From assembly GCF_000612505.1 (NCBI RefSeq), contig NZ_CP004078.1:980001-1044000 (forward strand): DNA of 64,000 bases. Reading direction: 5' to 3'. A program made the translations under genes and the position numbers. Shown piece after piece: positions 28,226-60,032 of this stretch; position 1 is the first letter of the stretch; the number at the start of each line of letters is the position of its first letter. The stretch is from Paenibacillus sabinae T27. GTDB taxonomy: Bacteria > Bacillota > Bacilli > Paenibacillales > Paenibacillaceae. The notes below the pieces were generated by a model. It did no database searches and was not told the DNA's origin. It saw nothing but the letters and a program-made list of their open reading frames with translations.

Positions 28226-28703
28226 TAACAAATTACAATCTTCTTATCATTTTTGTGTGCGAGTGCAAATAAAAATGTAAAGGATAAATGTGATAGAGGA
28301 ATGTAAACAAAAATGCCCAAAACAAGAGAATAAAAAGCACAAGCAGCAGATTTCTATCTAGTATTGACGAATTTACTCGTTTTAACATCTTATTATATAA
28401 CCTTTTTCAGTGGTTGCATAGGATATACTTGCCCAAGGAATCGGCTTGGGAGGCGTTTTCCTGAAGATAACTCTGATGGCCGGACTTTCTTTCAGACAGG
28501 CAAGGTTTTGAACGGATCAAGAGAAAATTTTTTTGTGAAAAAGCGCTTTAAAAGTGATTGACACTTGGAATTGGAAGCGCTATACTTCAATTGCGTCAAA
28601 GTTCTTTACATTTGTAATGAATAATGTAAATAAATTGAGATTAGAGATGTCTATTAAACGTGCTTGTGGAGAGAGCCGGAAGTCGGGTCAATGGAGGTTA
28701 ACG
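28226..28703. other. Gene-free control region of the fructan locus
   Basis: About 480 bp without a gene. Apart from the promoter and operators listed separately, it contains AATGTAAA at 28274, 28300 and 28623 and the inverted copy TTTACATT at 28605. The last two form an 8-bp inverted repeat with a ten-base spacer in the untranslated leader. Their role is unknown. Confidence 0.5.
28540..28586 (+). promoter_or_regulatory. Promoter and two operators of the GH32 genes
   Basis: TTGACA (28558-28563) and TATACT (28581-28586) are separated by 17 bp. AAAGCGCTTT (28540-28549) lies just upstream of the -35, and AAGCGCT (28575-28581) runs into the -10. Binding of a LacI-type repressor here would block transcription. 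Confidence 0.8.
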
Positions 28704-30155: not shown

Positions 30156-30200
30156 GCACATTATAGAAAAAAATATTTTGGAACAGGATGGTGACCTTCT

Positions 30201-31737: not shown

Positions 31738-31772
31738 GAAAAAGGCGGCCTGAAACTTGGGTCGCTTTTCTT
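31738..31772 (+). terminator. Possible attenuating hairpin before the large GH32 gene
   Basis: AAAAGGCGGCC pairs with GGGTCGCTTTT apart from one bulge and is followed by a T-rich stretch. Confidence 0.45.
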
Positions 31773-31822
31773 CAGCAGTAATGGACAGCGCTTACATTAT
31801 ATCAAGAATGGGAGTGAATGCG

Positions 31823-41693: not shown

Positions 41694-41937
41694 GCGGTCA
41701 GCCTCCGTTGATCGAATCGGTTCGGCCGGGACTTGGCAGTAGCATTTATCCCCGGCTTTCGCTTTCTGATTATAGCATGACCCGGGGTTTCGCGCCGCCT
41801 GGGGAGCTTTATCCCCATATCCGTAGTGTAAAATGTGGATAATGTGGAAAAATAGATTTGAATTAGAGAAATCATCCACTGGTAAATAACAGGATGCGGC
41901 GTTATATTCCATTTATAACATGACGGAGGTGGCTATA

Positions 41938-42336
41938 TTGATTCCAGTGGCGGCGGCCATCATTTATAACTCGGAAGGCAAAGTGCTGATTGCGCGCCGC
42001 AGGGAAGGCAAGTCCCAGGCGGGACTGTGGGAATTTCCCGGCGGCAAGATCGAAGAAGGCGAAGACGCCTGTGCCTGCCTGCGGCGGGAATTGAGGGAAG
42101 AGATGGGCATTGACATTATGCCATATGCCTATTTTGGCGTTAACGAGCACCGCTACGGCAAAAGCTTGATTATCCGGCTGATCGCCTGGAAAGCAGAATA
42201 CTGGGGAGGCGAGATCGTCCTGACGGATCATGACGACTGCCGCTGGGAGCATCCGGGGGAGCTGGACCGGTTTCATTTTGCCCCCGCCGATCTTCCGTTT
42301 GTGCGGAAGCTGGGTCTGGAACCCGGTGGACGATGA
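41938..42336 (+). CDS. Nudix hydrolase (MutT-like)
   Basis: Small pyrophosphohydrolase of 132 residues. The Nudix box is complete: GGKIEEGEDACACLRREL followed by REEMGI, including the metal-binding glutamates. The LWEFPGGK lead-in and the WKAEYWGGEIVLTDHDDCRW segment resemble 8-oxo-dGTP-cleaving MutT proteins. I prefer the TTG at 41938 since GGAGG lies eight bases before it; an upstream ATG at 41920 has no ribosome binding site. A nucleotide-pool cleaning role is inference from the family. Confidence 0.9.
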   Translation: MIPVAAAIIYNSEGKVLIARRREGKSQAGLWEFPGGKIEEGEDACACLRRELREEMGIDIMPYAYFGVNEHRYGKSLIIRLIAWKAEYWGGEIVLTDHDDCRWEHPGELDRFHFAPADLPFVRKLGLEPGGR

Positions 42337-44506: not shown

Positions 44507-45439
44507 CTAAACCTGCCCAAAATCGGGGTCCCAGCGGTACTTGGCCGCTCGGATTTCCTTCGCCCGGACATCGAGGCCGTTCCAGGCCTCATGCGGATAA
44601 GCGCAAATCAATTGATGCAGCCGCAGGAAACGGTCGCGGGGCAGCAGATGGGCGTATCGGCCGATGAAGGCGGAGTAGAGCAGGGCGTAGCGCTTCATGC
44701 GCACCGCCGATCCGGCCACCGCGGCGAGAAGCGAGGCGCCGTCCTTCATTTCAAGAATTTGCGCTTCATACCGCTGGACATAGCGCAGGGTGCGGTCCTT
44801 AATCAGATCCCGCCGCAGTCTCGCAACCTCGCCGATGTACTCCGCGAGCAGCGGCTCGAAATCCTTCAGCAGCAGCTGCTCCATTTCCAGATCCATGTCC
44901 TTGCGCAGCCGGAAGCCGTGCAGCAGGGCGACGCGCTGCCTCGCGATGCGGTCGCCGCGAAGCAGCACGGCGATTTCGCGCAGCTTCTCGTAAGCGAGCG
45001 TATCGTTCTCCCGCAGCACGGACACGGCCTCCTGCCGGTTGATCTCAAGGCCTTGCCTGATCGCGCCGATATGCCGGCCAAGCAGCTCGTCCAGCGCGCG
45101 CAGGTTCTCGGCCGCACGCGCCTTGCGCTGGGCGGCGACGAGCGCAAGCAGCAGGACGAGCCCGCCGGCCAGGCACAGCGCAAGCTGCGCGCCGCTGGCT
45201 GCGAAATAGGCCGAGATAAGCGTCAGCAGGACGACGGCCAGTAGTGCGGCCGCCATGCGGCGTCCGGCAAGCGAAGCCGCCCGGCCTTCCACGGTGACCA
45301 GGGCGGTCCTGCCGCAGTGCTTGCAGCGTTCTCCGGGCAAAGCGGTGAACGTGCCGCAGCGCTTGCAGACGCGCAGCTTGTCGAAGGAATATCGCGGGGC
45401 TTTGAAGGGGCGGAGGACGACCGGTTTTTTCTTAGCCAT
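44507..45439 (-). CDS. Zinc-ribbon membrane protein of the NTPase cluster
   Basis: Unrecognised family, 310 residues. An N-terminal zinc ribbon (C25, C28, C39 and C42: VCKRCG and CKHCG) is followed by two close transmembrane helices (about 62-104). A long Leu/Arg/Glu-rich helical region (about 105-300) follows. It overlaps the 50-residue gene upstream (that gene's stop lies just past this ATG), a sign of translational coupling. It forms a divergent arm to the vWA/tubulin-like run and shares a zinc-ribbon theme with the GTPase at 55695, so I place it in the same system. Confidence 0.8.
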   Translation of the reverse strand: MAKKKPVVLRPFKAPRYSFDKLRVCKRCGTFTALPGERCKHCGRTALVTVEGRAASLAGRRMAAALLAVVLLTLISAYFAASGAQLALCLAGGLVLLLALVAAQRKARAAENLRALDELLGRHIGAIRQGLEINRQEAVSVLRENDTLAYEKLREIAVLLRGDRIARQRVALLHGFRLRKDMDLEMEQLLLKDFEPLLAEYIGEVARLRRDLIKDRTLRYVQRYEAQILEMKDGASLLAAVAGSAVRMKRYALLYSAFIGRYAHLLPRDRFLRLHQLICAYPHEAWNGLDVRAKEIRAAKYRWDPDFGQV

Positions 45440-45584
45440 GGGTGCGGTCGCCTCCGTTCAGCGCGGCCAGCAGCCGCTCGTCGATCTCTTCCCGGCTAAC
45501 CGGCCTGCGTCCCCGGAGGAAGTAGCCGAGAACTCGAATAACGGTATAAAGAAACGTAATTCCAAGTATAACGTATGAAATCAT
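45432..45584 (-). CDS. Small membrane protein (50 aa)
   Basis: Fifty residues with one N-terminal transmembrane helix (about 3-22) and a charged cytoplasmic tail (RRPVSREEIDERLLAAL). AAAGGA precedes the ATG at 45584; the ORF runs upstream to 45623, but without support. It is coupled by overlap to the zinc-ribbon gene. No family recognised. Confidence 0.65.
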   Translation of the reverse strand: MISYVILGITFLYTVIRVLGYFLRGRRPVSREEIDERLLAALNGGDRTHG

Positions 45585-45614
45585 GGAGCTGTCCTTTCCT
45601 GGAGAACGGTTGTC

Positions 45615-45631
45615 TTCGAACATTGTTCGAA
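45615..45631. promoter_or_regulatory. 17-bp palindrome between the divergent arms
   Basis: TTCGAACATTGTTCGAA is symmetric except at its central base. It recalls the LexA box (CGAAC-N4-GTTCG), but the spacer here is three bases. It lies 31 bp before the 50-residue gene and could regulate both arms. Confidence 0.5.
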
Positions 45632-45679
45632 AAAGGCTGACGGACGCCGCCCGTTGCCGCTCGCTCAGCGTTCCTTAAG

Positions 45680-45708
45680 TTGAAGTTTACAGGGTTTAAT
45701 TATATCAT
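45680..45708 (+). promoter_or_regulatory. Possible promoter of the vWA/tubulin-like run
   Basis: TTGAAG (45680-45685) and TATCAT (45703-45708) are separated by 17 bp, about 80 bp before the first gene. Confidence 0.45.
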
Positions 45709-45789
45709 AATGGCAGGCTATTGACAGAATTTAGCTGTACTGATCGGTCTTTCCCGCCGCCCTATCAAATCATAAGAGGAGTTATAGTC

Positions 45790-47607
45790 ATGCTTCGTAA
45801 CGATGTTCAAAATAGAAGGGTTTTATCGTTTTTTGCCCGGTGTCTTCCCGCGCTGCTGCTGGCGCTGAGCCTCGCGGCCGGACCGTTCGCGGCGGTTCCG
45901 GTATCCGCAGCTCCGTCCTCTTCTCCGGGAGCGTCTTCGCAGATCGACGCCGTTCTGGTGCTCGATGTCAGCAATTCCATGAAGACGAGCGATAAGAGCA
46001 ACATCGCCGGCGAGGCGATGAAGATGTTCATAGATATGCTGTCTGCGAAGGGAGACAAGGTTGGAGTCGTCGCTTATACCGATGAGGTGCAGCGGGAGAA
46101 GGCGCTGCTGACCATTAACTCGGCCTCGGACAAACAGGATTTGAAGGCTTTTATCGATGGCCTGGATAAAGGCGCATACACCGATATTGCCGTGGGCGTC
46201 GATGAAGCGGTCAAGGTGCTGCAGAACGGCAGCGACCCTGCCCACGAGCCGATGATCGTGCTCCTTGCCGACGGCAACAACGATCTGAACGAAGCGTCCG
46301 GCCGGACGCAGAGCGAGTCGGACAAAATGCTCGGCACGGCAGTGGAGACGGCCAAGAAGAACGGATATCCGATTTACACGATCGGCCTGAACGCGGACGG
46401 CAAGCTGAACAAGGCCAGTCTCGCGAAGCTGTCCGACCAGACGGGCGGCAAGGCGTTCGCTACCGATACCGCAGACGATTTGCCCGATATTTTGAGTGAA
46501 ATTTTTGCCGACCATCTGAAGCTGAAGGTCGTTCCGGTGCAGTCGATTACGGCGAACGGCAGCTATCAGGAGGTGACGGTGAACGTTCCGAACGCCAGCG
46601 TCCTGGAAGCGAACATTTCCATTATGTCCCGGGAGCCGGTAACGGCGAAGCTAACCGACCCGTCGGGGGCGAGCGTGGCGATTCCATCGAGCAATGTGCT
46701 GCTATCCAAGTCTTCGACGTACAGCCTGCTGAAGCTGCTGTCCCCGAAGGAAGGGGACTGGAAGCTTCAGATCAAGGGTGTGCCGAAGGATAAAATCGAC
46801 ATCAATCTGATTTTCAATTATGACCTGGAGCTTAAAATGGACGTTCCGGCGTCCAAGACATACAAGAAAGGCGACAAGATCGGCATCTCCGCCCGCCTGT
46901 ATACGGGCGGCGCGCAGGTACAGGAAGCGGAGCTGTACAAGAACATGAAGGCGACGCTGCTTGCGACCGACCTGGACTCCGGAAAGACTGCGGAGCTTCC
47001 GCTGGACAATTCAAGCGGCGAGTTCAAGGGCAGCTTTGAGGTGAAGGACAGCCATAACTATGAGCTGAAAATCCGGGCCGAAGAGAGAAGCTTCTACCGC
47101 GAGAGCAATGCTGTACAGATCAATGCGGGAGGGTCTGCTGCCCAGGCGCCCGCCGGAGCCGGAAGTGAAGCGCAGGATAAAGGCACTCCATGGACGCTGA
47201 TTCTGGTTATTGCCGGAGCGCTGCTGGTTCTGGCCGCCGCCTTCGTCATCTGGATGCTGTGGAAGAAAGCAAGCCGCGGTTTCGTCGGACAGCTCGTGAT
47301 CGAGGTGATTGACGGAAATACCGGCGAGAAGACGTATCCGCAGTACAAGAAGCTGACGGGCTTCAGAGGCAAGTTCAACCTGCATCAGCTGCTGCAGCTT
47401 GCCCCTGAGCTTAAAGAAAGCGAGAAGCTGGTCTTCACGCCGGGCAGCAATGACCGGCTGCAGCTTCGCGGCGGCGAAGGGATTTCGGTCGAGAAATCGG
47501 GCCGTGCGGTCGACGCCACCCGGGGGCTGGAGTTGAAGAGCGGAGACCGCGTCTCGGTTCCGCTCAGCAGCGTAGACAAGACGATAATGCTGGAGTATTT
47601 GGTATAA
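45790..47607 (+). CDS. Secreted, membrane-anchored vWA protein
   Basis: This 605-residue protein has an N-terminal signal peptide (about 1-41, ending VPVSA). A vWA domain (about 50-230) follows with the MIDAS motif DVSNS and the later LADGNN, which bind a divalent metal. A beta-rich extracellular stretch (about 240-460) leads to one transmembrane helix (about 472-494) and a cytoplasmic domain (about 500-605). AGAGGAG lies eight bases before the ATG at 45790. It heads the long run, 16 bases before the tubulin-like gene. The vWA domain faces outside, so it may sense or bind a surface ligand and signal inward. Confidence 0.88.
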   Translation: MLRNDVQNRRVLSFFARCLPALLLALSLAAGPFAAVPVSAAPSSSPGASSQIDAVLVLDVSNSMKTSDKSNIAGEAMKMFIDMLSAKGDKVGVVAYTDEVQREKALLTINSASDKQDLKAFIDGLDKGAYTDIAVGVDEAVKVLQNGSDPAHEPMIVLLADGNNDLNEASGRTQSESDKMLGTAVETAKKNGYPIYTIGLNADGKLNKASLAKLSDQTGGKAFATDTADDLPDILSEIFADHLKLKVVPVQSITANGSYQEVTVNVPNASVLEANISIMSREPVTAKLTDPSGASVAIPSSNVLLSKSSTYSLLKLLSPKEGDWKLQIKGVPKDKIDINLIFNYDLELKMDVPASKTYKKGDKIGISARLYTGGAQVQEAELYKNMKATLLATDLDSGKTAELPLDNSSGEFKGSFEVKDSHNYELKIRAEERSFYRESNAVQINAGGSAAQAPAGAGSEAQDKGTPWTLILVIAGALLVLAAAFVIWMLWKKASRGFVGQLVIEVIDGNTGEKTYPQYKKLTGFRGKFNLHQLLQLAPELKESEKLVFTPGSNDRLQLRGGEGISVEKSGRAVDATRGLELKSGDRVSVPLSSVDKTIMLEYLV

Positions 47608-47623
47608 GATTAGGGGGATAACC

Positions 47624-50600
47624 ATGAAACCGGTCGTAAGAGAACATATTCAGCAGCTGGACGTATCGCTTGGCGGAGGCATCGTCAGCGACAAAATCAG
47701 AGTCGACACGATCGACAATCCGATTCTTATTATCGGTCTCGGCGGCACGGGCATCGATGCCCTGCTTCGGCTGAAATACCAGATCAACCGCCGCTTCAAG
47801 CTGCCGGAGGACCCGATTTCCAAGAAGAAGCGGGATAAGCCGGACAATGTCGAGTTCCTCGCTTTCGAGACGAACGAACAGGACCGCGGCAAGAAGTACA
47901 AAGGCATCGGCCTTGACCCGCAGAACGAATTCGTGCTGCTGGCCAACGCCGAGATCGGCGGGCTGCTGCAGAACCGCAGCATTCTCGACCCATACATTAC
48001 GGAATGGCTGTCGCCCGAGCTCAGCATTACAGATGGCATGAACGGCGCCGCCGGGGTACGTCAGGCGGGAAGGCTGCTGCTGTTCACGAAGATCAATCAG
48101 GTCGTGGGCGCGATCGACAAGAAGATCAAGACGCTGTCTGTCGGCACGAACAAAAAGCTCATGGTCTTCCTGCTGACCGGATTGTCCGGCGGCACGGGAA
48201 GCGGCGCTTTTCTCGACATCGCCTATATTGTGCGTGGCATTATCGAGCGAGATTACGGCTCAGCCGGAATCGACCGGGTCAATACACTCGGGTATCTGTT
48301 TACGCCCGACGTGAACCTGTCGAACAAGAGCCTCAGCGAGCACACCCGCGAATACATCCGCAAGAACGGATACGCCGCGCTCAAGGAGCTGGACTACTGG
48401 ATGAACGTGGACAGCCGGGGCGAGCGGTTCCGCCAGCAGTACGGCAATATTTTGACCGTCAATTCGCCGCTTCCTCCGTTCAATCTGTGCCACCTCATTT
48501 CGGCGACGAACACCGAGGGCAAGCTGCTGGAGAATGCATATGACTACTGCATGAACGTGACGGCGGAGAACATTACGAACTTTATGGCGAGCGAGGAGAA
48601 GCAGTCGGGCGAGGAATTCGCCATCCACGACTACATCAGCAACATCCGCACGAACATCGCGCAGATGCACAAGAGCTATCCCGCCAACTATGAATACAAC
48701 ATTATCGGAGCGTCTTCGGCGGTGCTGCCGATTGAAGAAATGACGACTTACCTGGCATACCGCCTCTTCGACAAAATGGAGAAAATGTTCCATCAGGCGC
48801 CGGGCCAGGAGGATGTCGAGAAAATAGCCCGCAAGCTCGGGATCGATCTGGAGAGCATGATCAAAGCTTTTGAAGCACGTGTGCCGGAGCCGCTGCCAGG
48901 CTTTGAGAACAGCGAGCGTCTGAGCCATTCCAACGTCATCAAACATCAGGTCGTCGATATGGACACCGAGCTTGAGCAGAGCTTCCTGTCGCGCGCAAGA
49001 GAAGAGTACATCAAGGTAAGAAAGCAGCTCCCGGGCGAAATCGTCGGACGGTTTGGCGAAGAGATGGAGCGGACGTTCCTGCATCCCGAGCAGGGGCCGT
49101 TCTATGTGTCGCGGCTGATCTTTACGGAAAAAGGCTTCTGCCTCCTGAAGCTGATCCAGTCCTACATTGAAGCGCTGCGGGAGAATCTGCTGCGTCTGCC
49201 GCGCGATATCGAGACGGCCCGGGAAGCGGCGGAGGATAAGCTGGGCGATGCGCGAAGCGCTTTTGTCTCGAAGGAAAAGAAGAAGAACGCCTATATCGAC
49301 GCGAAAATCAACGAATACTGGCTGCATGCCGATGTAGACCGGACGGAGCGGATGATTGAGTTCTATGAGGATCTGTTCGAGCTGCTGAACGACGAGAACA
49401 GCCGGATTTACGGCGTGTTTACGGAAATTTTGAACGCGCTGAGCTCAATCTTCGCCAAGAACGGGCATATTCTCACAAGCGGCGAAGAACAGACGGATCA
49501 CAGGGGCAACAAGACGTATTACTGGAACATTGTAAGCGTGCCGGACATTTCGCAGACGATCTCGAAGATTATGGATCAAAAAGACGGCGACGACCTGATC
49601 CGCGACTTTTCCCGGGAAATGCTGCGGAATTCCAGCCGCTGGGTCAGAGAACAGGAGATTGACGTCGTCCGCTCCATTTCCGAATTCCTCAGCGACAAGT
49701 TCGGGGATTTGATCACCCGGTCGATGGAGGATTTTCTCGTGATGAAATACGGCAGCGAAGAGCCGCTCGACAAGCTTGTGGAACGTACGATCGCCGGAAA
49801 GCTTGACGAGGAAGCCGTGCCGGTCTTCCACCTGAGCAACAGCTCGGGCAGCCTGCACTTCCCTTCGTGGGGCTTCGTGTCGGTGCCGGTGAAGGCGCCG
49901 GGCATCCTGAAGGGCATCCGCAACTACCAGAATAACGCGCTCGGCAAATCGCAGTTCACGGTTAAGGAGAGCGAGGTCAAGAACCGGATTTTCTGGCTGA
50001 ATACGCGCAACGGGGTGCCGCTGTTCGTCTATACGCCGCTGCGGGTGTATGAAGAAAACTATGAGCGGACCATTCTGGACAAGGAAGGCATCGGTCGCCA
50101 TCTGGTGCAGACCGAAAAGAATAACTGGACGTATCTGCCGTCGCCGATTCCGGAGCAGTCCTGGGGCGACACGTACAGCAACGCCAGAGTCAAGGAGTAC
50201 AACGCAAGGGTGCGCGGAGAATTTGCCAAGGCGCTGGAGGCCGGAGTCATTACGGAAAAAGGTCTGGACGAGAACACCAGCAACCGCTATTCGGTCGTGT
50301 TCACAAAGCCCTTCGATATTGACGCGTTCCTGCGCGGATACGATCTTCAACTGGAAGCGCCGCGCCCGAATCTGGGCGAGGTGAAGAAAGCCGCCGACGA
50401 GCTGGGGAGGCTCCGTGAGAACGGGCTGGAGCGCGAGGGCGTGAAGGATATTTTCGGCAGCATCAACCGGGAGCTGGCGCAGGAGAATCTGATCCGTACG
50501 CCGCAGCTTACAGCAAGGTTGCGCGAGGAGCTGGTAAAATACGAAGCGCTCACCGCCAAAGCGGAAGAGCTGAACGCGGTGCTCCGCCAGTATCTGGACG

Positions 50601-51013
50601 AAGAAAAATGGATGGATCAGTTCCTGGAGGCTCTGTACACGGATACGATCGTGAAGAAGGGCGCGCTGTTCGTGTACGACAAGGACGAGGAAGAGGAGAG
50701 CTGGGAGCCGTTCGCCAACCTGATGAAGGAACGCAGCTATGTGGAATACGCGGTCTACCGCCATTTCCGGGCGCTGGACGAGAAGAGCCGCAGCGTGCTG
50801 CTGCGCAAAAGCGCGCGCCGCGCCGCGGAATTGACCGCGTCCGAGGATGTGTCTCCGCTGCTCTACAAGCTGGATAGCCTGTATGTGAGCGTCCTGGAGG
50901 CGCGGGACAGCCTCGAATACGAGCGGGTGGAGCATGCCGATGGCGACGAGATGTACGCCTTCTACAAAGGCATGACCGGAAAGCTTGGCAGCATCCGCAG
51001 AAAGTTGAAATAG
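47624..51013 (+). CDS. Tubulin-like GTPase (Tubulin_2 type), 1129 aa
   Basis: Large cytoplasmic protein. The N-terminal region has the tubulin/FtsZ nucleotide-binding layout: a first glycine loop LIIGLGGTGIDAL (about 35-47) and the tubulin signature TGLSGGTGSGAFLDIA (about 184-199). The rest (about 400-1129) is largely helical and family-specific. It is not FtsZ, which is about 380 residues and lacks this extension. The ATG at 47624 follows the vWA gene by 16 bases, and the next gene starts four bases after its stop. Whether it polymerises is unknown; a filament or GTP-switch role is inferred from the fold. Confidence 0.88.
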   Translation: MKPVVREHIQQLDVSLGGGIVSDKIRVDTIDNPILIIGLGGTGIDALLRLKYQINRRFKLPEDPISKKKRDKPDNVEFLAFETNEQDRGKKYKGIGLDPQNEFVLLANAEIGGLLQNRSILDPYITEWLSPELSITDGMNGAAGVRQAGRLLLFTKINQVVGAIDKKIKTLSVGTNKKLMVFLLTGLSGGTGSGAFLDIAYIVRGIIERDYGSAGIDRVNTLGYLFTPDVNLSNKSLSEHTREYIRKNGYAALKELDYWMNVDSRGERFRQQYGNILTVNSPLPPFNLCHLISATNTEGKLLENAYDYCMNVTAENITNFMASEEKQSGEEFAIHDYISNIRTNIAQMHKSYPANYEYNIIGASSAVLPIEEMTTYLAYRLFDKMEKMFHQAPGQEDVEKIARKLGIDLESMIKAFEARVPEPLPGFENSERLSHSNVIKHQVVDMDTELEQSFLSRAREEYIKVRKQLPGEIVGRFGEEMERTFLHPEQGPFYVSRLIFTEKGFCLLKLIQSYIEALRENLLRLPRDIETAREAAEDKLGDARSAFVSKEKKKNAYIDAKINEYWLHADVDRTERMIEFYEDLFELLNDENSRIYGVFTEILNALSSIFAKNGHILTSGEEQTDHRGNKTYYWNIVSVPDISQTISKIMDQKDGDDLIRDFSREMLRNSSRWVREQEIDVVRSISEFLSDKFGDLITRSMEDFLVMKYGSEEPLDKLVERTIAGKLDEEAVPVFHLSNSSGSLHFPSWGFVSVPVKAPGILKGIRNYQNNALGKSQFTVKESEVKNRIFWLNTRNGVPLFVYTPLRVYEENYERTILDKEGIGRHLVQTEKNNWTYLPSPIPEQSWGDTYSNARVKEYNARVRGEFAKALEAGVITEKGLDENTSNRYSVVFTKPFDIDAFLRGYDLQLEAPRPNLGEVKKAADELGRLRENGLEREGVKDIFGSINRELAQENLIRTPQLTARLREELVKYEALTAKAEELNAVLRQYLDEEKWMDQFLEALYTDTIVKKGALFVYDKDEEEESWEPFANLMKERSYVEYAVYRHFRALDEKSRSVLLRKSARRAAELTASEDVSPLLYKLDSLYVSVLEARDSLEYERVEHADGDEMYAFYKGMTGKLGSIRRKLK

Positions 51014-51017
51014 GCCT

Positions 51018-53495
51018 ATGATCAGATCGCTGGCAATGCGTTATGCGGCGGAGTACGCCGCCCGTGAGGACCGGCTGCAGGATCAGGGGGACGGGCGCAG
51101 CAGCATCCATTACCCCGCCCTGTTTCTGTTCGTAGGCGAGAAGGCCGCGCCCGCTATAGGCCCCGTGCTAGACAGCTGCCGCCGCAAATGGGACAACGCC
51201 GGCGGCGTTATGGCGCTGCACGCCGTTCCCGAAGGCGGGAAGGCGGAGCAATCCGCCGTCCCGCAAGGTGAACCGGCGTCCGGCGGCTTCGCATCCGAGA
51301 GCCCTGCTTCCGGGATTTCCTCCCGAAGCGGGGCTTCGGCACCGCTCTTGTCCGGCGGGCCGACTGACCGGCTCCGGACGATGACCCTTCCCCGGACCGA
51401 AGGGCGCGATCCCCGCACGGTCCGCCGGGACCTGTTCCTTGAGTTCCAAGGGGAACAGCGTTATCTCGCGGAGATGAACACCGCGCTGCGGCGCTTGACG
51501 GACAGCATGGCGGATTACGGCAGGCTGTATTCTTCCTTTGACGTCATCCATCTCTCCATCATCACTCGGGTCGACGACCCGCTTAATGTGCTGCTGCCGG
51601 AAATCACGCTGCTGACCCGTGCCGTGCTCGGCCAGTCGTTCAAATCGGTGCAGACCGATCTGTTCACGCTGATCAGTGAGCGGGAACAGGCTGAGAGCTT
51701 CGGGCTTTCCAGCTCGGCGGGAATGGCCTTCCTGCGCGAGCTGGAGGGCATGCAGTCGCCGGATTACGAACGTACCGCTCCGCTGCTCGTGACCGAGGAC
51801 GGACTGTCCATTCCGGTCAGCCACGGTCCGGCGCCGCTGTTTGACCTTGTCTACGTCCTGTCGGACAAGAATGAGCGCGGCACGTCGCCGGCGGGCGGAA
51901 TGGACGACAATTACGAAATCATTTCCCACATCAGTCTGCTGAAGAACGTGATGCGGCCCTCCGGCGACAGCCGGGACCAGGCCGGTTATAACAATATGGC
52001 GTTCAAAAGCGGGATCAGGGGCAGCACGGGCCGGCAGGGATACGCTTCCGCCGGCTTCTCCGGCGTCAAGCGGCCGAACCGGCAGATCGCCCTGGCCGTG
52101 CTGTACCATACGTTCCGCCGGATCACGGAGGAGATGTCCGGCGAGAGCCGTCTCGGCCCGCGCGAACGTCTCGAACGGCTCGGCTTAAGCCAAGGCAGCC
52201 TGCGGGAGCGGGCCAAGAAGCTGCTTCCGGACAAGGAGGGCATTCTCGAAATGACCGGCCTGATGAGTCATGGGCGCCCATCCTATAGTGAGCTGAAACG
52301 GCTGTCACTGCGCGAAGCGGAGGAACGGCTGTTTGGCAGAGGCGGCGAGGCTTACTTCAGCAGTAATTTCGCTTCGCCCGCGGCGAAGCGGCTGGAAGCC
52401 GCCGACCCGCTGCGGGAGTGGAAACCGCTGCTCGCCGCTCCGGAAGGGGGAAGCGAGGGAGTCACGTTCTTCCAGCTGGCGGAGTGGACCGCCGACCGGG
52501 ACGATGCCGGCAGTCTGCTTTATGGGCTCCGCCAGCATATGGCCGGGCTCAGAGCCGCGATTGCCTTATCGCGTGAGGAGCTGGAGCTGCTGTACGGGGA
52601 TAGCGTGGACCGGCTGCCCTTCTCCAAGGTGCCGCTTATGGACAAGCGGACGGTCCGGAACTTTATTCACTATCTGTTCGCAGAGGTGTACGGCGCCAAG
52701 TATGAACTGCTGCTGCTGGAGAACGAGCTTGCGCTGTGCCTCCGGCTCGAAGCCGCGCTGGAGTCGCTGCATTCGGCAAGCGTCAAGCGGGTGAAGGCGA
52801 TGGAGCGGCTGGAGGAGGAGCTTAAAGCGGCAGCGCTGGACAGCATCGGCCGGGCGGAGGGCGATATCGGCCGGAATATTATGGAGTATTACCGCGCCGT
52901 GACGGATGAAGTGATCGGCGAGATCGAGTCCCGGCGCGGCCCCGGCGCCCTGCTGAGCGAGCGGTATATGGGAAGTGTTCCTGATCTGCTGGACCGGGGC
53001 GCCGAGGCGCTGCTGGAGCGGCTGATCGGAGTGTGCGTGCGGGAGATTCTGACGGCTGAGCCTTTCGCCCTTTCGTTCGAGGAGGAGCTTCTGCGGCGGG
53101 CAAATGTCGCGGCGGCGTACGACAACCGGGAGGTATTATCGAAGGAAGAGCTGTTCCGGCGCCTGTACCGGACGCTGGAAGAGGAAGCGGCCATCCATGT
53201 CCGTCTCTTCGAGTACACGCAGGAGCACCGGCATGAGGAAAAATATTTCTTCGGCGACAGCGGCTCGGAATTTCTGCGTTACGCGCTTTCGGCTGACGAG
53301 ACGACGCGCATTTACCGGTTGGGCGTTGTGCATGAGCGGCGGCGCAGCGGCGTAGAGAAGCTGAATCTGATGGGCGGATTCCATCTGGAGGATCTGCTGT
53401 ACTACCGCAATGGCCGGATTTATTATGAGACTTATATGAAGAACGGTTACGAGCTGCACGGCGTGGATGAGGAGTCGCTTCCCGCTCTGCGCTAG
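51018..53495 (+). CDS. Cluster protein of 825 aa, possible degenerate tubulin-like partner
   Basis: No family recognised with confidence. The first 110 residues end in a low-complexity Ser/Gly/Pro part. Residues about 160-320 have strand-helix alternation with DVIHLSIITRVDDPLN and FDLVYVLSDKNERG, which resembles the central part of Tubulin_2-type proteins but lacks both glycine loops. Residues about 480-760 are mainly helical. It sits four bases after the tubulin-like gene, with only a weak ATAGG as ribosome binding site, so coupling is likely. I infer it is a stoichiometric partner. Confidence 0.7.
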   Translation: MIRSLAMRYAAEYAAREDRLQDQGDGRSSIHYPALFLFVGEKAAPAIGPVLDSCRRKWDNAGGVMALHAVPEGGKAEQSAVPQGEPASGGFASESPASGISSRSGASAPLLSGGPTDRLRTMTLPRTEGRDPRTVRRDLFLEFQGEQRYLAEMNTALRRLTDSMADYGRLYSSFDVIHLSIITRVDDPLNVLLPEITLLTRAVLGQSFKSVQTDLFTLISEREQAESFGLSSSAGMAFLRELEGMQSPDYERTAPLLVTEDGLSIPVSHGPAPLFDLVYVLSDKNERGTSPAGGMDDNYEIISHISLLKNVMRPSGDSRDQAGYNNMAFKSGIRGSTGRQGYASAGFSGVKRPNRQIALAVLYHTFRRITEEMSGESRLGPRERLERLGLSQGSLRERAKKLLPDKEGILEMTGLMSHGRPSYSELKRLSLREAEERLFGRGGEAYFSSNFASPAAKRLEAADPLREWKPLLAAPEGGSEGVTFFQLAEWTADRDDAGSLLYGLRQHMAGLRAAIALSREELELLYGDSVDRLPFSKVPLMDKRTVRNFIHYLFAEVYGAKYELLLLENELALCLRLEAALESLHSASVKRVKAMERLEEELKAAALDSIGRAEGDIGRNIMEYYRAVTDEVIGEIESRRGPGALLSERYMGSVPDLLDRGAEALLERLIGVCVREILTAEPFALSFEEELLRRANVAAAYDNREVLSKEELFRRLYRTLEEEAAIHVRLFEYTQEHRHEEKYFFGDSGSEFLRYALSADETTRIYRLGVVHERRRSGVEKLNLMGGFHLEDLLYYRNGRIYYETYMKNGYELHGVDEESLPALR

Positions 53496-53521
53496 AGGCT
53501 TTCCGAAAGGATGATGAATCG

Positions 53522-54817
53522 ATGCAGCGCAAATTGAATCTGCTTCTCCTCTTGTTCAGTCTGATCGGCGGAGCGGTCGCTTTTGTGATTGGCGAGCTGA
53601 TGCTCGGCCGCCTGCTTGGAGACTGGCCGTCCATTCTGGTCGTCGGTCTGTACTTTGGCGTTGTGGCGCTTGGTGCGGGGCTCGGCTGTCTGCTGGCCGA
53701 GATGATTTCGCCCAGCCTGAACGGCTGGTCGTGGCGTCGGCGGTACCTTGGCTTGTCTTGGAAGCTGCTTCCGCTGTCCGTCGCCCTGCTGCTGGGCGCG
53801 GGGACGTTGATGGAGTTCGTATACGAACTCAATTTCGGCGGCCTGAGGCCAGTTAAGGATATCGTGATGGTCATCGATGATTCCGGCAGCATGGAGCAGA
53901 GCGACCCAGGCAACAGCCGCTATACGGCTGCGCGGGACCTAGTGATGCGGATGGACGGGGATAACAGGGTCGCGGTGCTGACATTCAGCGACCAGGCGGC
54001 GGTCGTTCAGCCGCTGACTTCGCTTGGGAAGGCTGGGAACCGGGAGCAGGTGACGACTGCGATTAACACTCTGCGGACGACCCAGGGCGGAACGAATCTT
54101 AGCGGGGCGCTGTCGGAGGCGCTGAACGTCATTAACGGCGACAGTTCCTCCGGACGGGGAGCGATGGTCATTCTGCTGTCGGACGGGGTAAGCCGGCTGG
54201 ACACCTCTACGGAGCTCCGCGATTACGTGGACCGCGGGATTGCGGTTAACACGATCGGCCTCAGTATCAGCGATCCTTCCGGCCCAGCCCTGCTGAAGGC
54301 CATCGCCGGGACGACCGGCGGGCAATATTACGATGTCGCTGACGCGAACCGTCTGGCCGATATCTTCCGCCAGATTTACGACCGTCTCGGCGACCGGACG
54401 CTGCTTACAGAGCGGACGGATAACACGCAGAACAGCCCTTATTACGCGGCACTGCGCGTTCTGTCGCTGGTATTGATCGGGGCTGCGCTCGGACTCGGGC
54501 TCGGCATTGTCTTCGACAACCGCCATCTGGCCAAAAGCTTTGGCCTCGGCGGCATCGTGTCCGGCCTGCTGGCCGGGCTCACGCTGGAATTCGGCCTCGG
54601 CGGACACGCCTTCGTAAACGCGATGGTGCGGCTGCTGGCCGTGCTGCTGCTGGCCGGAGTGATCGCGCTGTTCACCGCGGTCGTTCCGGTGGGAGAAGGT
54701 CGGCTGACCCGCCGGGGACACGGAGCGAAGCAGCCGTCCCGGCGTCCGTCACAGGGTTATTCACCCCGCGGGAACCGGAGCAGCAAAGGCTTCCGTACCG
54801 CTGACAAAGATCACTAG
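53522..54817 (+). CDS. Polytopic membrane protein with vWA domain
   Basis: This 431-residue protein has three N-terminal transmembrane helices (about 5-30, 38-62 and 80-98). A vWA domain (about 110-290) follows with an intact MIDAS site DDSGSMEQSD, the T in TQGGTNLSG and LSDGVS. About three more helices close the protein (about 310-400), then a basic tail. AAAGGATGA precedes the ATG. It differs from the first vWA protein in topology, since its vWA domain lies between two membrane bundles and should be on the cytoplasmic side if the N terminus is inside and there are an even number of crossings; the side is uncertain. Confidence 0.85.
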   Translation: MQRKLNLLLLLFSLIGGAVAFVIGELMLGRLLGDWPSILVVGLYFGVVALGAGLGCLLAEMISPSLNGWSWRRRYLGLSWKLLPLSVALLLGAGTLMEFVYELNFGGLRPVKDIVMVIDDSGSMEQSDPGNSRYTAARDLVMRMDGDNRVAVLTFSDQAAVVQPLTSLGKAGNREQVTTAINTLRTTQGGTNLSGALSEALNVINGDSSSGRGAMVILLSDGVSRLDTSTELRDYVDRGIAVNTIGLSISDPSGPALLKAIAGTTGGQYYDVADANRLADIFRQIYDRLGDRTLLTERTDNTQNSPYYAALRVLSLVLIGAALGLGLGIVFDNRHLAKSFGLGGIVSGLLAGLTLEFGLGGHAFVNAMVRLLAVLLLAGVIALFTAVVPVGEGRLTRRGHGAKQPSRRPSQGYSPRGNRSSKGFRTADKDH

Positions 54818-54834
54818 GAAAGGGGCTGCGGCCT

Positions 54835-55476
54835 ATGAGATATATCGAGCATTCACCGGACCTGCCGGGCATCACGGATATCATCTCGCGCGTGGAGGAG
54901 CGGACCTGCACGCTCCGGTGGCGCTGGCCCGAAGGCCTGCAGGCCGTCTATATCCATAAAGGCCCGGGGGGCGGAGATCACCTGGAAGAGGACAGCTGCC
55001 CGCCCGGAGGCCTGAAGCTGTACACGCGTGAAGAATACAAGGCGAATGGCGGCTATCACGACCGGCTGGAGGAGATCGGTCTGGTGGTCTACACCGTGCT
55101 TGCCCGCGTGACGGAGAACGGAGAGACGCTGCTGGTCCGGCAGCGTGACGGCGCGAACCTTGCGACCGTCAGCGCGGGCAAGGCGCTCATCCGATACGCG
55201 ATTCACGCCAAACGGGGCTTGTTCCGCAAGGAGCAGACCGTACATATGACGATTACGGCGGAAGTTCCCGTCGGCCGGGAAGTGCTGTGCTATGTCAAGA
55301 AGCACGGCGGTTATCCGGCCGACAAAGAGGATGGCATTCTTTTTCCGTTCGTGCAGGATTTCGCGCCGGGCCGCAACGCCCTTCCGCCGATTGAGATCGG
55401 CAGGGACGACCGGATCCGCATCTTTTTTACCGATGGGCCGAAGTACGGCCGCTACTATGAACTGGTGCCGGAATGA
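54835..55476 (+). CDS. Beta-rich cluster protein (213 aa), unknown
   Basis: No family recognised. The protein has no signal peptide or membrane segment and consists mainly of short strands (CTLRWRWPEGLQAVYIHKG, VVYTVLARV, VHMTITAEVP, EVLCYVKKHGG, RIRIFFTDGP). This pattern suggests one or two Ig/Fn3-like sandwiches. It starts 17 bases after the second vWA gene, so it belongs to the same run, and is followed by a 218-base gap before the GTPase gene. A binding or adaptor role is a guess. Confidence 0.7.
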   Translation: MRYIEHSPDLPGITDIISRVEERTCTLRWRWPEGLQAVYIHKGPGGGDHLEEDSCPPGGLKLYTREEYKANGGYHDRLEEIGLVVYTVLARVTENGETLLVRQRDGANLATVSAGKALIRYAIHAKRGLFRKEQTVHMTITAEVPVGREVLCYVKKHGGYPADKEDGILFPFVQDFAPGRNALPPIEIGRDDRIRIFFTDGPKYGRYYELVPE

Positions 55477-55694
55477 GACCGGGCGCGAAGGCCTGCACAA
55501 TTGATACAGCAGAGAGCTTCAGGTGAGGTACACGGAGGAAGGTTTAGAACCGAATCGCCCGGGTGCAAGCTAAGCCCGATTACCTGTTCTGCTATTTTTA
55601 ACGGCGTTTATTATTTTGACTTCTATTTCTACGAGAAACGTACCTGCGTCTTAAAAAGACGCCGTCAGGAGTTTCTTCTTGGGAGGATGAGCAT
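55477..55694 (+). other. Non-coding gap inside the NTPase run
   Basis: No gene found. It holds a small hairpin (CGTCTT, AAAA, AGACG) at about 55647-55663 without a T-tract, and a second inverted repeat upstream of it. A promoter could lie here, but no good -35/-10 pair was seen. Confidence 0.4.
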
Positions 55695-56951
55695 ATGTCT
55701 TTTTTCAGCCGCTTTTTGAAGAAGAACCAGCCGCAGCCGCGGCCGCTTTTTTACGATATCGTATGTCCGTACTGCTTCAGCAAATTCGACCCGTCGGAAG
55801 TGCTCTTCCGGGCCATGCACAGCCGGGAGGACGACGAGGATTACGCGCTGGGCGAGGATGATGAGCTCAATAAATACCGCGAGCGGTTCGGGCTCGATTC
55901 GGTGGACGATCTTGAAGCGATTATTCGGCCGTCCGACATTCCGGAGGAGCATCATCATTATACGGATCATGTGCTGACTGGGCTGACCGACCGCTACGGG
56001 GTGCTTACGCGGAGACGTCTCTGCCCTCACTGCCACAACGAGCTGCCGGTCACGGCGGGAAAGGTGCCAAGCAATATCATCTCCATTATCGGCGCTTCCC
56101 AGGTCGGCAAATCGGTCTACATGACCTCGCTCATCCACACGCTGCAGCATACGACCGCCGGCCACTTCGAGGCCGCCTGCATGCCGCTGAACGCCGAAAT
56201 CAGCCGCAAATTCCGCAGTCTGTACGAGGACCCGCTGTTCGAGCGAGGTGATTTGCTGTCTTCGACCCAGAAAGAGAAGATGCAGGAGCCGTTTATTTTT
56301 CAATTCGTGTTCAAAAATGAGGACAAGCCGCCGCTGACGCTCGTCTTCTTCGATGTCGCGGGCGAGGGCATGGTCGATCAGGACTACCTCGGGCTGCACG
56401 GCCAGCATATCAAAAATTCGGCGGGCATCCTGTTCATGGTCGATCCGCTGCAAATCCGCTCCATCCGCGAAAAAATCCGCATCAATATCGGCGACCGCCC
56501 CGGCGAATGGGTCTCGCAGTACGATGAGCCGCGCGATGTGGTGCTGACGCTTTTCGGCGATTTTATCGCCTATCAGGAGAAGAGCAAGACCGACATTCCG
56601 ACCGCCGTTGTGCTGGCCAAGAGCGACATGCTGCACTCGCTGAAGGACGAGGACGGGGATTACATCAAGGCCAACAGCAATGTATTCAACAATTACGTGC
56701 ACCGCGGGACGCTGAATCTGGACGAGGTCGGCAATATCGACGGCGAAATCAGCCGTTTTATCGGAAAAGTGGACCGTCCGTTCAAGGATACGATGGATGT
56801 CTATTTCTCCAATACCGCCTATTTCGCGGTTTCGGCGCTTGGCAGCAATCCCGTCGATCAGAAAATCGAAGGCGTCGTCAGCCCCATCCGGGTGGATGAG
56901 CCGTTCCTGTGGCTGCTGCACAAGCTGAAGTTCATCGAAGGGAGCGATTAA
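55695..56951 (+). CDS. Zinc-ribbon P-loop GTPase (TRAFAC-type)
   Basis: This 418-residue protein has two CxxC pairs (C24/C27 and C110/C113) that probably form a zinc ribbon split around an acidic loop (about 45-60). A GTPase-like domain follows. The P-loop is GASQVGKS (133-140), the switch II or Walker B equivalent is DVAGEG starting at D220, and a late AKSD stands in for the NKxD specificity motif. It resembles the DO-GTPase-type TRAFAC proteins found with GAP1. GGGAGGA precedes the ATG, and the GAP1-like gene begins three bases after its stop. It probably acts as the GTP switch of the cluster. Confidence 0.85.
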   Translation: MSFFSRFLKKNQPQPRPLFYDIVCPYCFSKFDPSEVLFRAMHSREDDEDYALGEDDELNKYRERFGLDSVDDLEAIIRPSDIPEEHHHYTDHVLTGLTDRYGVLTRRRLCPHCHNELPVTAGKVPSNIISIIGASQVGKSVYMTSLIHTLQHTTAGHFEAACMPLNAEISRKFRSLYEDPLFERGDLLSSTQKEKMQEPFIFQFVFKNEDKPPLTLVFFDVAGEGMVDQDYLGLHGQHIKNSAGILFMVDPLQIRSIREKIRINIGDRPGEWVSQYDEPRDVVLTLFGDFIAYQEKSKTDIPTAVVLAKSDMLHSLKDEDGDYIKANSNVFNNYVHRGTLNLDEVGNIDGEISRFIGKVDRPFKDTMDVYFSNTAYFAVSALGSNPVDQKIEGVVSPIRVDEPFLWLLHKLKFIEGSD

Positions 56952-56954
56952 ACG

Positions 56955-59900
56955 GTGAGCATTCATTCGGAAGCCGGCGTCGCCCAGCAGATGTATACGC
57001 GGCAGCGGCGCGGCGTTTTCCGCTCCACGGAGGGCTTTGACACGGTGGCGAAGTCAGAGAGTCTGGACAATAATTTCGTCAAAAAAATCCTTCACCCGTT
57101 CTGCCTGTACGACGCTCCGGCGGAGCTGGCGGCCAGAGGCGAGAAGGACGAGTCGCAGTATCCGCCCGCACTTCATCTGTTTCATCCGGACAGCGGGGAG
57201 ACCGTGCTTGGACAAAGCGTCTTCCAGGCGGCGGATTTCACGGGGCTGCGCAGCGCCTTTTTCACCCATAATTATGTGCTTCCCGCCTCCCGGGCCGAAG
57301 AAATCGTGCGGGATTACGGTGACTATCTGCATGCGGATTTTGCCGAGGGATTCAGCGGAGAACCGGGAGAACCCCTGCCGGAGCTAGGCGGCATCCCGGT
57401 GTCACGGCGAAACCGTCCCCGCCCGGCGGACGTTCTGAAATCGCTTGGCGTCGACAGAGCAATCTTTAACAATCTGCTGCAGGCGATCATGCAGTCGGTG
57501 TCCGGCAAAAAGAAAATGTATATATCGCTGAACGTCCCCGTGAGTGAACTGTCGGCGCGGGCGGCCGATCTGACCGAGGTGCTCCTCGGCTGTCTCCCCC
57601 TCGAATTCCGCCGCAGACTCGGTGTCATCACGTATGCAAAAGAGCCCCAGAGCCGTAAATACATCCACCTGACGTTTGTGGAGAACGGCTCGCTGCGTCC
57701 CGGTGACCGGGCGATCGAGAAGGACTTTATTTTTGATCTTGCCGCCGGACGGATAATGAACGCCGATTTCCCGGCCTCGTCCCAGCCGTTCCTTGAGCTC
57801 GCTTGGGAGCTGCTGCTGCGCGGGAAAGGGGCTGCGGACGATTTTGCCGGGTTCGCTGACATGATGCTGGGAGGCGAGCCTGCGGAACGGAAGCTGTCAC
57901 TGGCGGCTTATAACGAGCTGGCGGTTTTTTACCGGATCGAGCAGGGAGACGAGGCGTTATACCGGGAGAACAAAAGCGCCGTCCTGAACGGGCTGCTCAG
58001 CTATCTGGGCGGAGAAGGGGCGCTGGAGTCGAAAATCCGGCTGAACGACCTGTTTCTGGAGCGCTTCGACCGCGAATTCGACGCCGTCCGGCAGAAGGCG
58101 ATACCGGAGACGGCCGTTCTGGAGAGCTTCCGGGATTATTTTTCGCTGAAGGGCCATAATTACCGGACGCGGATCGTCGATTACTTTATTAACGGGATGC
58201 TGAACGCGCAAAATGCCGGCCGCACGGATTCTCTGGAGGAAGCGTTTGGCGTAGTTGAGAGCGGCGGGGAGCTGGCTGCCGCCTTTTTCCGCAAGCTGCT
58301 GACGACCCCGGTCTTTGCGCGTCTTCTGTTCCAGCCCTATGTGGAATCCCGGCTGGCGTCGGCCGCGAACGCCGCGGGGCTGCTGGAGTGGATAGGGCAT
58401 TGGGACCGGTTCATGCCTGAAGCGCTGCGTCAACCGGCTGTCCATGACGCGCTGCTCGATTATTTGCCGGAGAAGCTGGAGCGGGAGCGTGATCCGGTGG
58501 GAGCCGTGGCGGCGATCCATAGCCGCATTGAACAAGCAGAGAAGGACCGCCGCCGGAGAGCAGGCATCCGCCCCGAAGCGCTGGCGCTCCAGAAGGAGCT
58601 GGCCGCCGCGGCCGACCGGTATTTGCTGGAGCGGCTGTCGATTGAAGATATTACGCAGGAGCAGCTGCTGGAGCTGTCATTTGTCCGCTACGCCCTCGAT
58701 ATGGGCGAATGGGACCCGCCGCTTGACCTGCACAGCAGGCGGAAGGCGAATGTACTGCGCACGGCGTACCGCTGGTTCGGGGAGGAGAACCCGGACGAGC
58801 ATATTTTTGACGGCCTGTCTCCGCAGGAACTGGACGATGTGCAGCTTCTGGGACGACGCTGGATGAAAGAGAGCCCCGGAGCCGAGCCTTTTGCCCGCCT
58901 GCCGCTGGCCTTCTACCACAGCAGCGCCCGCGAGGGAGGGCCGCTCGAGTATGATGCGCTGCTGGAGCATGTCCGGAGGAAGGAGGAAGGCGGCAAGGAA
59001 GCGGTCTACCGTTTTCTGGCCTGGTCGCAGGACAATCCGCTGTTCACCATTTCCTCAAGGAAGCTCCAGCCGGGCTACCGGCGGGCGATTTTAAAGTATT
59101 TCGCCAGCCATGACCGTGAAGCGTTCAAGAGCCGCGAATTCCGAAAAACATATATGGCCCCGGCGGGACCCGCGCTGCAAAACGTATATGGAGAGGCCCG
59201 GGGGCAAGCGGCCTCGCCGCTGGCCAAGTGGGTGCGCCGCCGCCGGTTTCAGCTGATGATCTTCGGCGCGGCCGTTATCGTTCTGCTGGTTGCAGGCGCC
59301 CTTGCGGCCCGCCTATTGAAGGGCGGCGGAGACGAAGCGACTCCGGCCGCCTCGCCGCAGCCTTCGCCGACGCAGTCTGCGGCTGGCGCGGGCTATCTCG
59401 AAGCCGCCGCCTATCTTGAGCGCGGCGGGGGCGGAGGCTCGCTGCTGTTCGCCTTCGCCTCCCCGGACGCCTGCCGCGAGTTTAATCCGGCGGAGATTGA
59501 GGTGGATGCCGGTACCGGCCAGGCTGAAGTGTATAAAGTGGACAGCCTGGTCCATGACTGCGGGCTGCCGGGATCGGCAAGCCCTTCGAATGCCGGTGGA
59601 GCAGCGGGTTCCGCCGGCGCTGCCGGTTCGGGAGCGGCGGCCTCCGGTGGGGGAACAGCTGGAAACGCCGGCAGCGGCCAAGGCCAGGCGGACACGGTGT
59701 CCGCCGATGAGAGCAAGGCCGCCGGGGATTCGCTCTCGGCCTCGGCCGGCCCATCGGCAGCTACCGGCGGGACCGTTCCTGCAAGCTCGCCGTCGCCGCC
59801 TGGAGAGCCAGCCGCCGGGTCAAGCATTGCGGACTCCCCGGCACCGGGTTCATCCGGCGGGAGCGGAGGATCTTCCGCTGTCGCACCTAACCAGGTGAAG

Positions 59901-60032
59901 GTAACGCTCGTTTCCGCCCCTAAGCTGACGGCCGGCAGCACGGTGAAAGCCGAAGACTATACGCTGGTCCTTATGGAAGCTCCGCAGGCGGCTCCATCCC
60001 CTTCGGCAAGCGCGAGTTCTCCGGCGGAATAG
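56955..60032 (+). CDS. GAP1-like GTPase-associated protein with membrane anchor
   Basis: This 1025-residue protein begins AQQMYTRQRRGVFRSTEGFD and DTVAKSESLD, the pattern of the GAP1-N2 domain of GTPase-associated protein 1. A long helical middle (about 280-750) follows, then one transmembrane helix (about 762-786). The C-terminal domain has a Gly/Ala/Ser/Pro-rich stretch and a short beta segment (VKVTLVSAPKLTAGS). It starts with GTG three bases after the GTPase stop, so the two should be coupled in translation. The name refers to family association; GAP activity is not shown. It closes the cluster. Confidence 0.82.
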   Translation: MSIHSEAGVAQQMYTRQRRGVFRSTEGFDTVAKSESLDNNFVKKILHPFCLYDAPAELAARGEKDESQYPPALHLFHPDSGETVLGQSVFQAADFTGLRSAFFTHNYVLPASRAEEIVRDYGDYLHADFAEGFSGEPGEPLPELGGIPVSRRNRPRPADVLKSLGVDRAIFNNLLQAIMQSVSGKKKMYISLNVPVSELSARAADLTEVLLGCLPLEFRRRLGVITYAKEPQSRKYIHLTFVENGSLRPGDRAIEKDFIFDLAAGRIMNADFPASSQPFLELAWELLLRGKGAADDFAGFADMMLGGEPAERKLSLAAYNELAVFYRIEQGDEALYRENKSAVLNGLLSYLGGEGALESKIRLNDLFLERFDREFDAVRQKAIPETAVLESFRDYFSLKGHNYRTRIVDYFINGMLNAQNAGRTDSLEEAFGVVESGGELAAAFFRKLLTTPVFARLLFQPYVESRLASAANAAGLLEWIGHWDRFMPEALRQPAVHDALLDYLPEKLERERDPVGAVAAIHSRIEQAEKDRRRRAGIRPEALALQKELAAAADRYLLERLSIEDITQEQLLELSFVRYALDMGEWDPPLDLHSRRKANVLRTAYRWFGEENPDEHIFDGLSPQELDDVQLLGRRWMKESPGAEPFARLPLAFYHSSAREGGPLEYDALLEHVRRKEEGGKEAVYRFLAWSQDNPLFTISSRKLQPGYRRAILKYFASHDREAFKSREFRKTYMAPAGPALQNVYGEARGQAASPLAKWVRRRRFQLMIFGAAVIVLLVAGALAARLLKGGGDEATPAASPQPSPTQSAAGAGYLEAAAYLERGGGGGSLLFAFASPDACREFNPAEIEVDAGTGQAEVYKVDSLVHDCGLPGSASPSNAGGAAGSAGAAGSGAAASGGGTAGNAGSGQGQADTVSADESKAAGDSLSASAGPSAATGGTVPASSPSPPGEPAAGSSIADSPAPGSSGGSGGSSAVAPNQVKVTLVSAPKLTAGSTVKAEDYTLVLMEAPQAAPSPSASASSPAE

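Follow-up and report, generated by a model that had tools for sequence, protein, structure and literature searches.

The seven tightly spaced plus-strand genes at 45790-60032 and the two minus-strand genes of the divergent arm (44507-45439 and 45432-45584) in the 64,000-nucleotide stretch of Paenibacillus sabinae T27 analysed here (the window) form one unit, which is the Paenibacillus form of an already described gene set. Its content matches the tubulin theme of GAP1-N2 neighbourhoods in Kaur et al. 2020 (eLife 9:e52696, PMC7159879) as well as the association of the FtsZl1 tubulin family with vWA and GTPase neighbours in Makarova & Koonin 2010 (Biol Direct 5:33, PMC2875224), both cited here for their passages on these neighbourhoods; the cluster is therefore a known kind of system, and the system itself is not new. 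An earlier interpretation made from the letters only (the sequence-only reading) had suggested an uncharacterised device. The tubulin combination cannot count as new because both papers describe it. In the open-access literature searched we found neither an experimental study of the cluster nor a test of the tubulin-system class, predicted since 2010.

The ORF map bears out the gene list of the sequence-only reading, the plus-strand order and the gaps of 3-26 bases with one of 218 (16, 4, 26, 17, 218 and 3 bases along the seven genes). Eight cluster proteins were compared with Pfam, and domains were recognised in all plus-strand products except ORF4 and ORF6. By hydropathy, transmembrane (TM) segments are present in both vWA proteins, in GAP1 and in the divergent arm, and none is seen in the window's tubulin, GTPase, ORF4 and ORF6. 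The labels promoter, T-loop, MIDAS, Walker and topology are general knowledge applied to the sequence. Searching named genomes with the tubulin yielded 296 loci; we fetched the best 80, whose titles all read Paenibacillus or Bacillus sp. FJAT, and took from them the orthologues discussed below.

The tubulin-like GTPase (47624-51013, 1129 aa) was assigned to the FtsZl1 / Tubulin_2 family through Pfam (Tubulin_2, E 1.6e-75) and its loop motifs. GLGGTG and SGGTGSG, both pointed out before, are found at residues 38 and 188; within the best 80 of 296 loci GLGGTG is kept in 80/80 orthologues and [ST]GGTGSG in 78/80. These intact T1 and T4 loop motifs correspond to the N-terminal FtsZ-like domain with the GTP-binding loop of FtsZl1. 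The AlphaFold model was unusable (pLDDT 44.9) and consequently the T6-H7 elements were not located, and the filament-forming elements of this GTP-binding tubulin are to be read as putative. For FtsZl1 as a family, T6-H7 elements are described as not identifiable and filament formation as expected, not demonstrated (PMC2875224, passages on this family). A profile search against PDB sequences gave only three unrelated weak matches (E 0.23-0.99).

ORF4 (51018-53495) and ORF6 had been called unrecognised, which holds for Pfam (neither has a match) but not for ORF4 as a whole. Judged by its structure model, ORF4 is a degenerate tubulin homologue with long helices (a pseudo-tubulin), lacking both GTP-loop motifs, and as such it would be new relative to the published descriptions. 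The model is moderate (pLDDT 69.6) and Foldseek returned zero matches below E 0.001: IniA ranks on top by E-value (E 0.01, probability 0.51), and CetZ2 and TubZ appear at E 0.09-0.2 with a probability of 0.94-0.99. The match of the ORF4 profile to the cluster's own tubulin is non-significant (probability 0.5%, E 0.12). Hydropathy indicated at least one TM segment in 8/78 ORF4 orthologues. In eight genomes of one genus (g8) the ORF4 match is interrupted by 54-282 bases close to profile position 640, which suggests a lineage-specific insertion.

The zinc-ribbon P-loop GTPase and the membrane-anchored GAP1-like protein of the sequence-only reading were both recovered. The former (55695-56951) matches Pfam DO-GTPase2 (E 1.9e-6; its 28.2 bits just exceed the cut-off of 27); DO-GTPase2 and DO-GTPase1 each match 22/22 GTPase proteins, with the invariant residues seen. 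It contains the P-loop GASQVGKS at 133, a DxAGE motif and two CxxC pairs (24 and 110). The P-loop is kept in 76/76 orthologues from the best 80 of 296 loci, and the [NT]KxD motif, for which the window reads AKSD, is matched by 61/76. Three bases downstream follows GAP1 (56955-60032), a single protein with GAP1-N2 (E 1.2e-43) and GAP1-M (E 1.4e-24), both above cut-off. Its TM segment (767-785) precedes some 240 Pro/Ser/Gly/Ala-rich residues, a polar tail predicted to lie outside; 69/73 orthologues from the same 80 loci have one TM segment.

Pfam detects VWA in both vWA1 (45790-47607) and vWA2 (53522-54817), and the intact MIDAS sites noted earlier are present as DxSxS at residues 82 and 119, kept in 77/80 vWA1 and 78/78 vWA2 orthologues (best 80 of 296 loci). 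The start of vWA1 is most likely the ATG at 45790 rather than the listed TTG at 45721. The protein consists of a signal/TM segment, the vWA domain (predicted outside), a beta-sandwich-like region, a TM segment and a C-terminal domain (predicted inside). In vWA2, TM segments flank both sides of a vWA domain that is also predicted outside, with five segments in the window and 5-6 in 71/78 orthologues. For these predictions the membrane side of the vWA domains was derived from the number of TM segments, and the topology of vWA1 from hydropathy alone. At E up to 1 the vWA1 family matches VWA (31/31), GBD_Hemicentin (31/31) and MG2 (22/31) along with other beta-sandwich families; of the 45 families matching these 31 proteins, the 25 listed do not include YtkA.

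ORF6 (54835-55476, 213 aa) shows no Pfam domain of note, FNIII included, and a profile search against PDB sequences found nothing at E up to 10. TM segments were seen by hydropathy in 2/77 of its orthologues. Its first half aligns weakly and collinearly to a repeat of a Rhodococcus protein located beside GAP1 (E 0.0061 and 0.004, single comparisons), and this partner, free of Pfam domains, was called FNIII-type by eye and from the description of Kaur et al. The possibility that ORF6 is a short FNIII-type protein is thus only weakly supported. Many ORF6 relatives carry the NCBI name 'beta-mannanase'; we set this label aside because Pfam shows no such domain, and it looks like a spread annotation error.

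The divergent arm contains two small membrane proteins, as had been claimed. The larger (44507-45439, 310 aa) is a zinc-ribbon membrane protein with the pairs CKRC and CKHC; two CxxC pairs occur within the first 60 residues in 78/78 orthologues from the best 80 of 296 loci. Pfam gives weak zinc-ribbon matches, below cut-off, and there are two hydrophobic stretches in the window against a single one in 42/78 orthologues. The smaller (45432-45584) encodes a 50-aa protein with one TM segment and overlaps the start of the zinc-ribbon gene. A small ORF ending at this start is found in 70/74 cases (the window and 73 loci), and the 14 listed look alike; this conserved membrane protein is newly noted here. 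The same applies to a shared promoter-like block between the two arms (45679-45736, both strands), visible when the window is aligned with 13 loci, which reads TTGAAG-17-TATCAT on the plus strand and TGATATAAT (extended -10) on the minus strand. Across 78 loci the best match to a 38-base consensus has a median of 11 mismatches versus 19 after shuffling, while in 15/78 it falls inside the shuffled range (17-21 mismatches). Going by these motifs, the block could represent two divergent sigma-A-type promoters.

In Kaur et al. 2020 the tubulin theme covers about 52% of GAP1-N2 neighbourhoods, and the present Firmicute layout is described. Shared features are the GAP1-N2 protein with a polar tail after a DO-GTPase, the two tubulin genes and the two vWA genes, one of which is rich in TM helices and has a vWA domain predicted to lie outside. 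Other components differ: the second vWA domain is fused to YtkA in that theme whereas YtkA went undetected in vWA1, and the FNIII-repeat component has a possible counterpart here in ORF6 with its weak matches (E 0.004-0.006) to a Pfam-less protein. In the same theme the GTPase 'usually' has two N-terminal zinc ribbons (here the two CxxC pairs make at most one split ribbon), and a C-terminal coiled coil is given for both tubulins (here the ORF4 model contains a helix at 542-611). Neither a second tubulin devoid of GTP loops nor the divergent arm comes up in the passages on this theme. With the FtsZl1 operons of Makarova & Koonin 2010 the cluster shares a Tubulin_2 protein with a GTP loop, a vWA protein, a diverged GTPase and membrane proteins. 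Those operons have an OmpA-type domain, which Pfam finds in none of the eight proteins. The passages on FtsZl1 name neither GAP1 nor a second tubulin.

A counterpart was found on a replicon of Rhodococcus sp. JS3073 (NZ_CP113952.1), a single locus picked as the best plasmid match for the GTPase. Within about 17 kb it holds vWA-like (E 9.7e-5; with 23.4 bits short of the cut-off, 27), Tubulin_2 (E 8.5e-45), GAP1-N2 (E 2e-18) and DO-GTPase2 (E 7.4e-7) proteins, so the linkage spans two phyla. The arrangement differs in that one tubulin is recognised, the GTPase comes after GAP1, and a long FNIII-type protein (by eye, without Pfam match) and two further ORFs without Pfam match are present. The locus lies on a 1.39-Mb record of a plasmid collection, which is of megaplasmid type and typed as non-mobilizable.

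That the genes belong together is seen among relatives. All eight larger ORFs keep their order and strand in 73/73 fully called loci of the best 80 out of 296; far genes are absent from four short or truncated loci (L011, L012, L013 and L087), and in three others (L024, L038 and L084) GAP1 is matched but its ORF was not called. ORF calling in relatives was automatic and left a few truncated ORFs (shortest vWA1 16 aa, GAP1 498 aa). Gaps of more than 250 bases within the cluster are seen in many relatives. In an even draw of 148 genomes from the GTDB family, tubulin, GAP1-N2 and ORF4 are present in the identical 71 genomes, with tubulin and GAP1 on one contig in 70 of these and on two in G102 (by eye). 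The neighbourhood survey proposed for Tubulin_2-type proteins in Paenibacillaceae thus finds the three together, and the sequence-only reading of one unit with several membrane proteins is confirmed: the homologues are not scattered. FtsZ is present in 148/148. A 72nd tubulin match, in G088, is partial only (28% identity); it belongs to a distinct Tubulin_2 protein with a 1134-aa open frame (match at G088:C1:1383559-1384563) in a genome without GAP1-N2.

By hand count, the cluster is fixed as a single copy in five genera (15/15, 15/15, 15/15, 13/13 and 3/3, together 61/61), an observation newly noted here. Further genera have it in 1/1, 5/7, 3/14 and 1/13 genomes, and ten others in 0/52 (also counted by hand). 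Tubulin, GAP1-N2 and ORF4 co-occur in the genera with variable presence (5/7, 3/14 and 1/13) as well, and the patchy pattern in these three allows for transfer or loss. Among 299 genomes sampled across the phylum, GAP1-N2 was found in 8 and Tubulin_2 in 11; both markers occur in five, every one of them from the own family.

The cluster genes are under purifying selection. With a simple Nei-Gojobori count against L010 (the closest of the best 80 of 296 loci), dN/dS ranges from 0.05 to 0.19 for all eight genes, with the lowest values for tubulin (0.053) and GTPase (0.064) and 0.135-0.186 for the other six; four neighbour genes gave 0.13-0.40 (one over 76 codons only). Similar figures result from 11 further loci, with medians of 0.035 (tubulin) and 0.022 (GTPase) versus 0.097-0.192 for the others. 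The two NTP switches are therefore the most strongly constrained genes of the cluster. In terms of median identity among the orthologues from the best 80 of 296 loci, GAP1, the zinc-ribbon protein, ORF4 and ORF6 reach 38-50% versus 80% for tubulin. Tubulin identity tracks FtsZ identity over 70 genomes (Pearson 0.85, Spearman 0.62, relatedness ignored), partly driven by the own genus.

Concerning mobility and defence, the tubulin has no phage match, and its one plasmid match is distant, covering 27% of the query at 27% identity. PADLOC 2.0.0 models match 0/8 cluster proteins at E 0.01; among 10 flanking proteins the only match is a NUDIX-like protein (41920-42336, candidate PDC-S07, E 8.7e-43), probably an ordinary MutT-type enzyme. 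These outcomes lend no support to the defence option of the sequence-only reading, which may nevertheless hold. A TubZ-like role in plasmid segregation was also considered and was dropped, since the cluster is fixed in whole genera and the genome, which has one Tubulin_2 and one GAP1-N2 match, is assembled as one 5.27-Mb contig.

Given these observations, we read the cluster as the form that the FtsZl1 / GAP1-N2 DO-GTPase system takes in Paenibacillaceae, and hold it somewhat more likely than not that sensing by vWA domains acts in it through a GTP switch on tubulin assembly, with an output at the envelope. The components and the selection on them are shown; the functional steps are inferred. 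The two membrane proteins would present their vWA domains extracellularly for metal-dependent binding of a wall or surface ligand, and the cytoplasmic DO-GTPase together with GAP1, which is predicted to be membrane-anchored with an extracellular polar tail, would form the GTP switch that reports the ligand state. This switch may in turn set the assembly of a membrane-proximal tubulin polymer, where the GTP-binding subunit (47624-51013) would work with the ORF4 pseudo-tubulin as cap, spacer or adaptor. Organisation of the envelope or cell surface would be a more likely output than phage defence.

The main alternative is an NTP-dependent conflict (immune) system, in which the sensors detect invasion, GTPase and GAP1 set a threshold and the tubulins build an effector superstructure. 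It is the published prediction for GAP1 systems (Kaur et al. 2020, PMC7159879), as the sequence-only reading correctly stated for GTPase/GAP1/vWA sets, and the same source reports a significant association of GAP1-N2 systems with multicellular prokaryotes (601/904). The greater variability of the non-NTPase parts (GAP1, the zinc-ribbon protein, ORF4 and ORF6) could also fit it and, like the patchy presence in three genera and the plasmid-type record that bears the actinobacterial counterpart, counts against our preferred explanation. Nonetheless, the PADLOC outcome, a tubulin with only one distant plasmid match, the presence of one match each in 61/61 genomes and dN/dS below 0.2 for all eight genes in the closest pair argue against a conflict system, which we regard as somewhat unlikely here. 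A chromosomal envelope/cytoskeleton device fits these data somewhat better, and because of the single-copy fixation, the constraint, the PADLOC result and the tubulin without close phage or plasmid relative we mildly favour, for this branch, the membrane remodelling put forward in the FtsZl1 passages of Makarova & Koonin over the conflict system of Kaur et al.

The Paenibacillaceae are spore-forming, and in the sample of 299 genomes from the phylum the two markers occur together in this family alone, which would suit a role in development, for example in membrane remodelling linked to sporulation or in the differentiation of swarming cells; the membrane remodelling that Makarova & Koonin 2010 (PMC2875224) propose can be read in the same sense. 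We think this improbable: the conserved upstream block seems to resemble vegetative sigma-A promoters, and 77/148 sampled family genomes lack the cluster. Chance neighbours, or independent functions sharing a promoter region, might be invoked for the 218-base gap and for the longer gaps in relatives, but that reading is already contradicted by the order kept in 73/73 loci and the identical presence in 71 genomes, and we give it next to no weight.

A more far-reaching reading is a two-subunit bacterial tubulin: ORF4, as a nucleotide-dead subunit, might form an obligate heteropolymer with the GTP-binding protein, and a membrane GTPase-GAP1 switch and extracellular vWA receptors would gate its assembly. 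We hold this to be unlikely; if true, a Gram-positive cell would link a tubulin scaffold in its interior to contact with its wall or its neighbours, broadly resembling integrin-cytoskeleton coupling. For biochemistry, the tubulin/pseudo-tubulin pair offers a well-defined question, and the survey helps to judge whether the published label 'conflict system' fits this branch. Every one of the 61 genomes sampled from five genera carries the cluster, chromosomal and as a single copy, which opens its role to study in tractable Paenibacillus.

Genes flanking the cluster in the window were matched near few of 89 loci (kinase 5, downstream protein 4, NUDIX 3, small hydrophobic protein 3), several of these matches being weak and nine of the loci being 4-kb pieces unable to show flanks. 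The upstream stretches of relatives (up to 6 kb) form groups, the largest comprising 44/77 by transitive linkage. Downstream of the cluster, a protein of 1169 aa or more that looks secreted and has repeated blocks runs from 60493 to 64000 and past the window end; a relative was matched in 4/89 loci, most of which hold little beyond GAP1. Elsewhere in the window, two adjoining GH32 family proteins are encoded at 28554-31664, beside a plus-strand ORF of 2109 aa (31757-38086).
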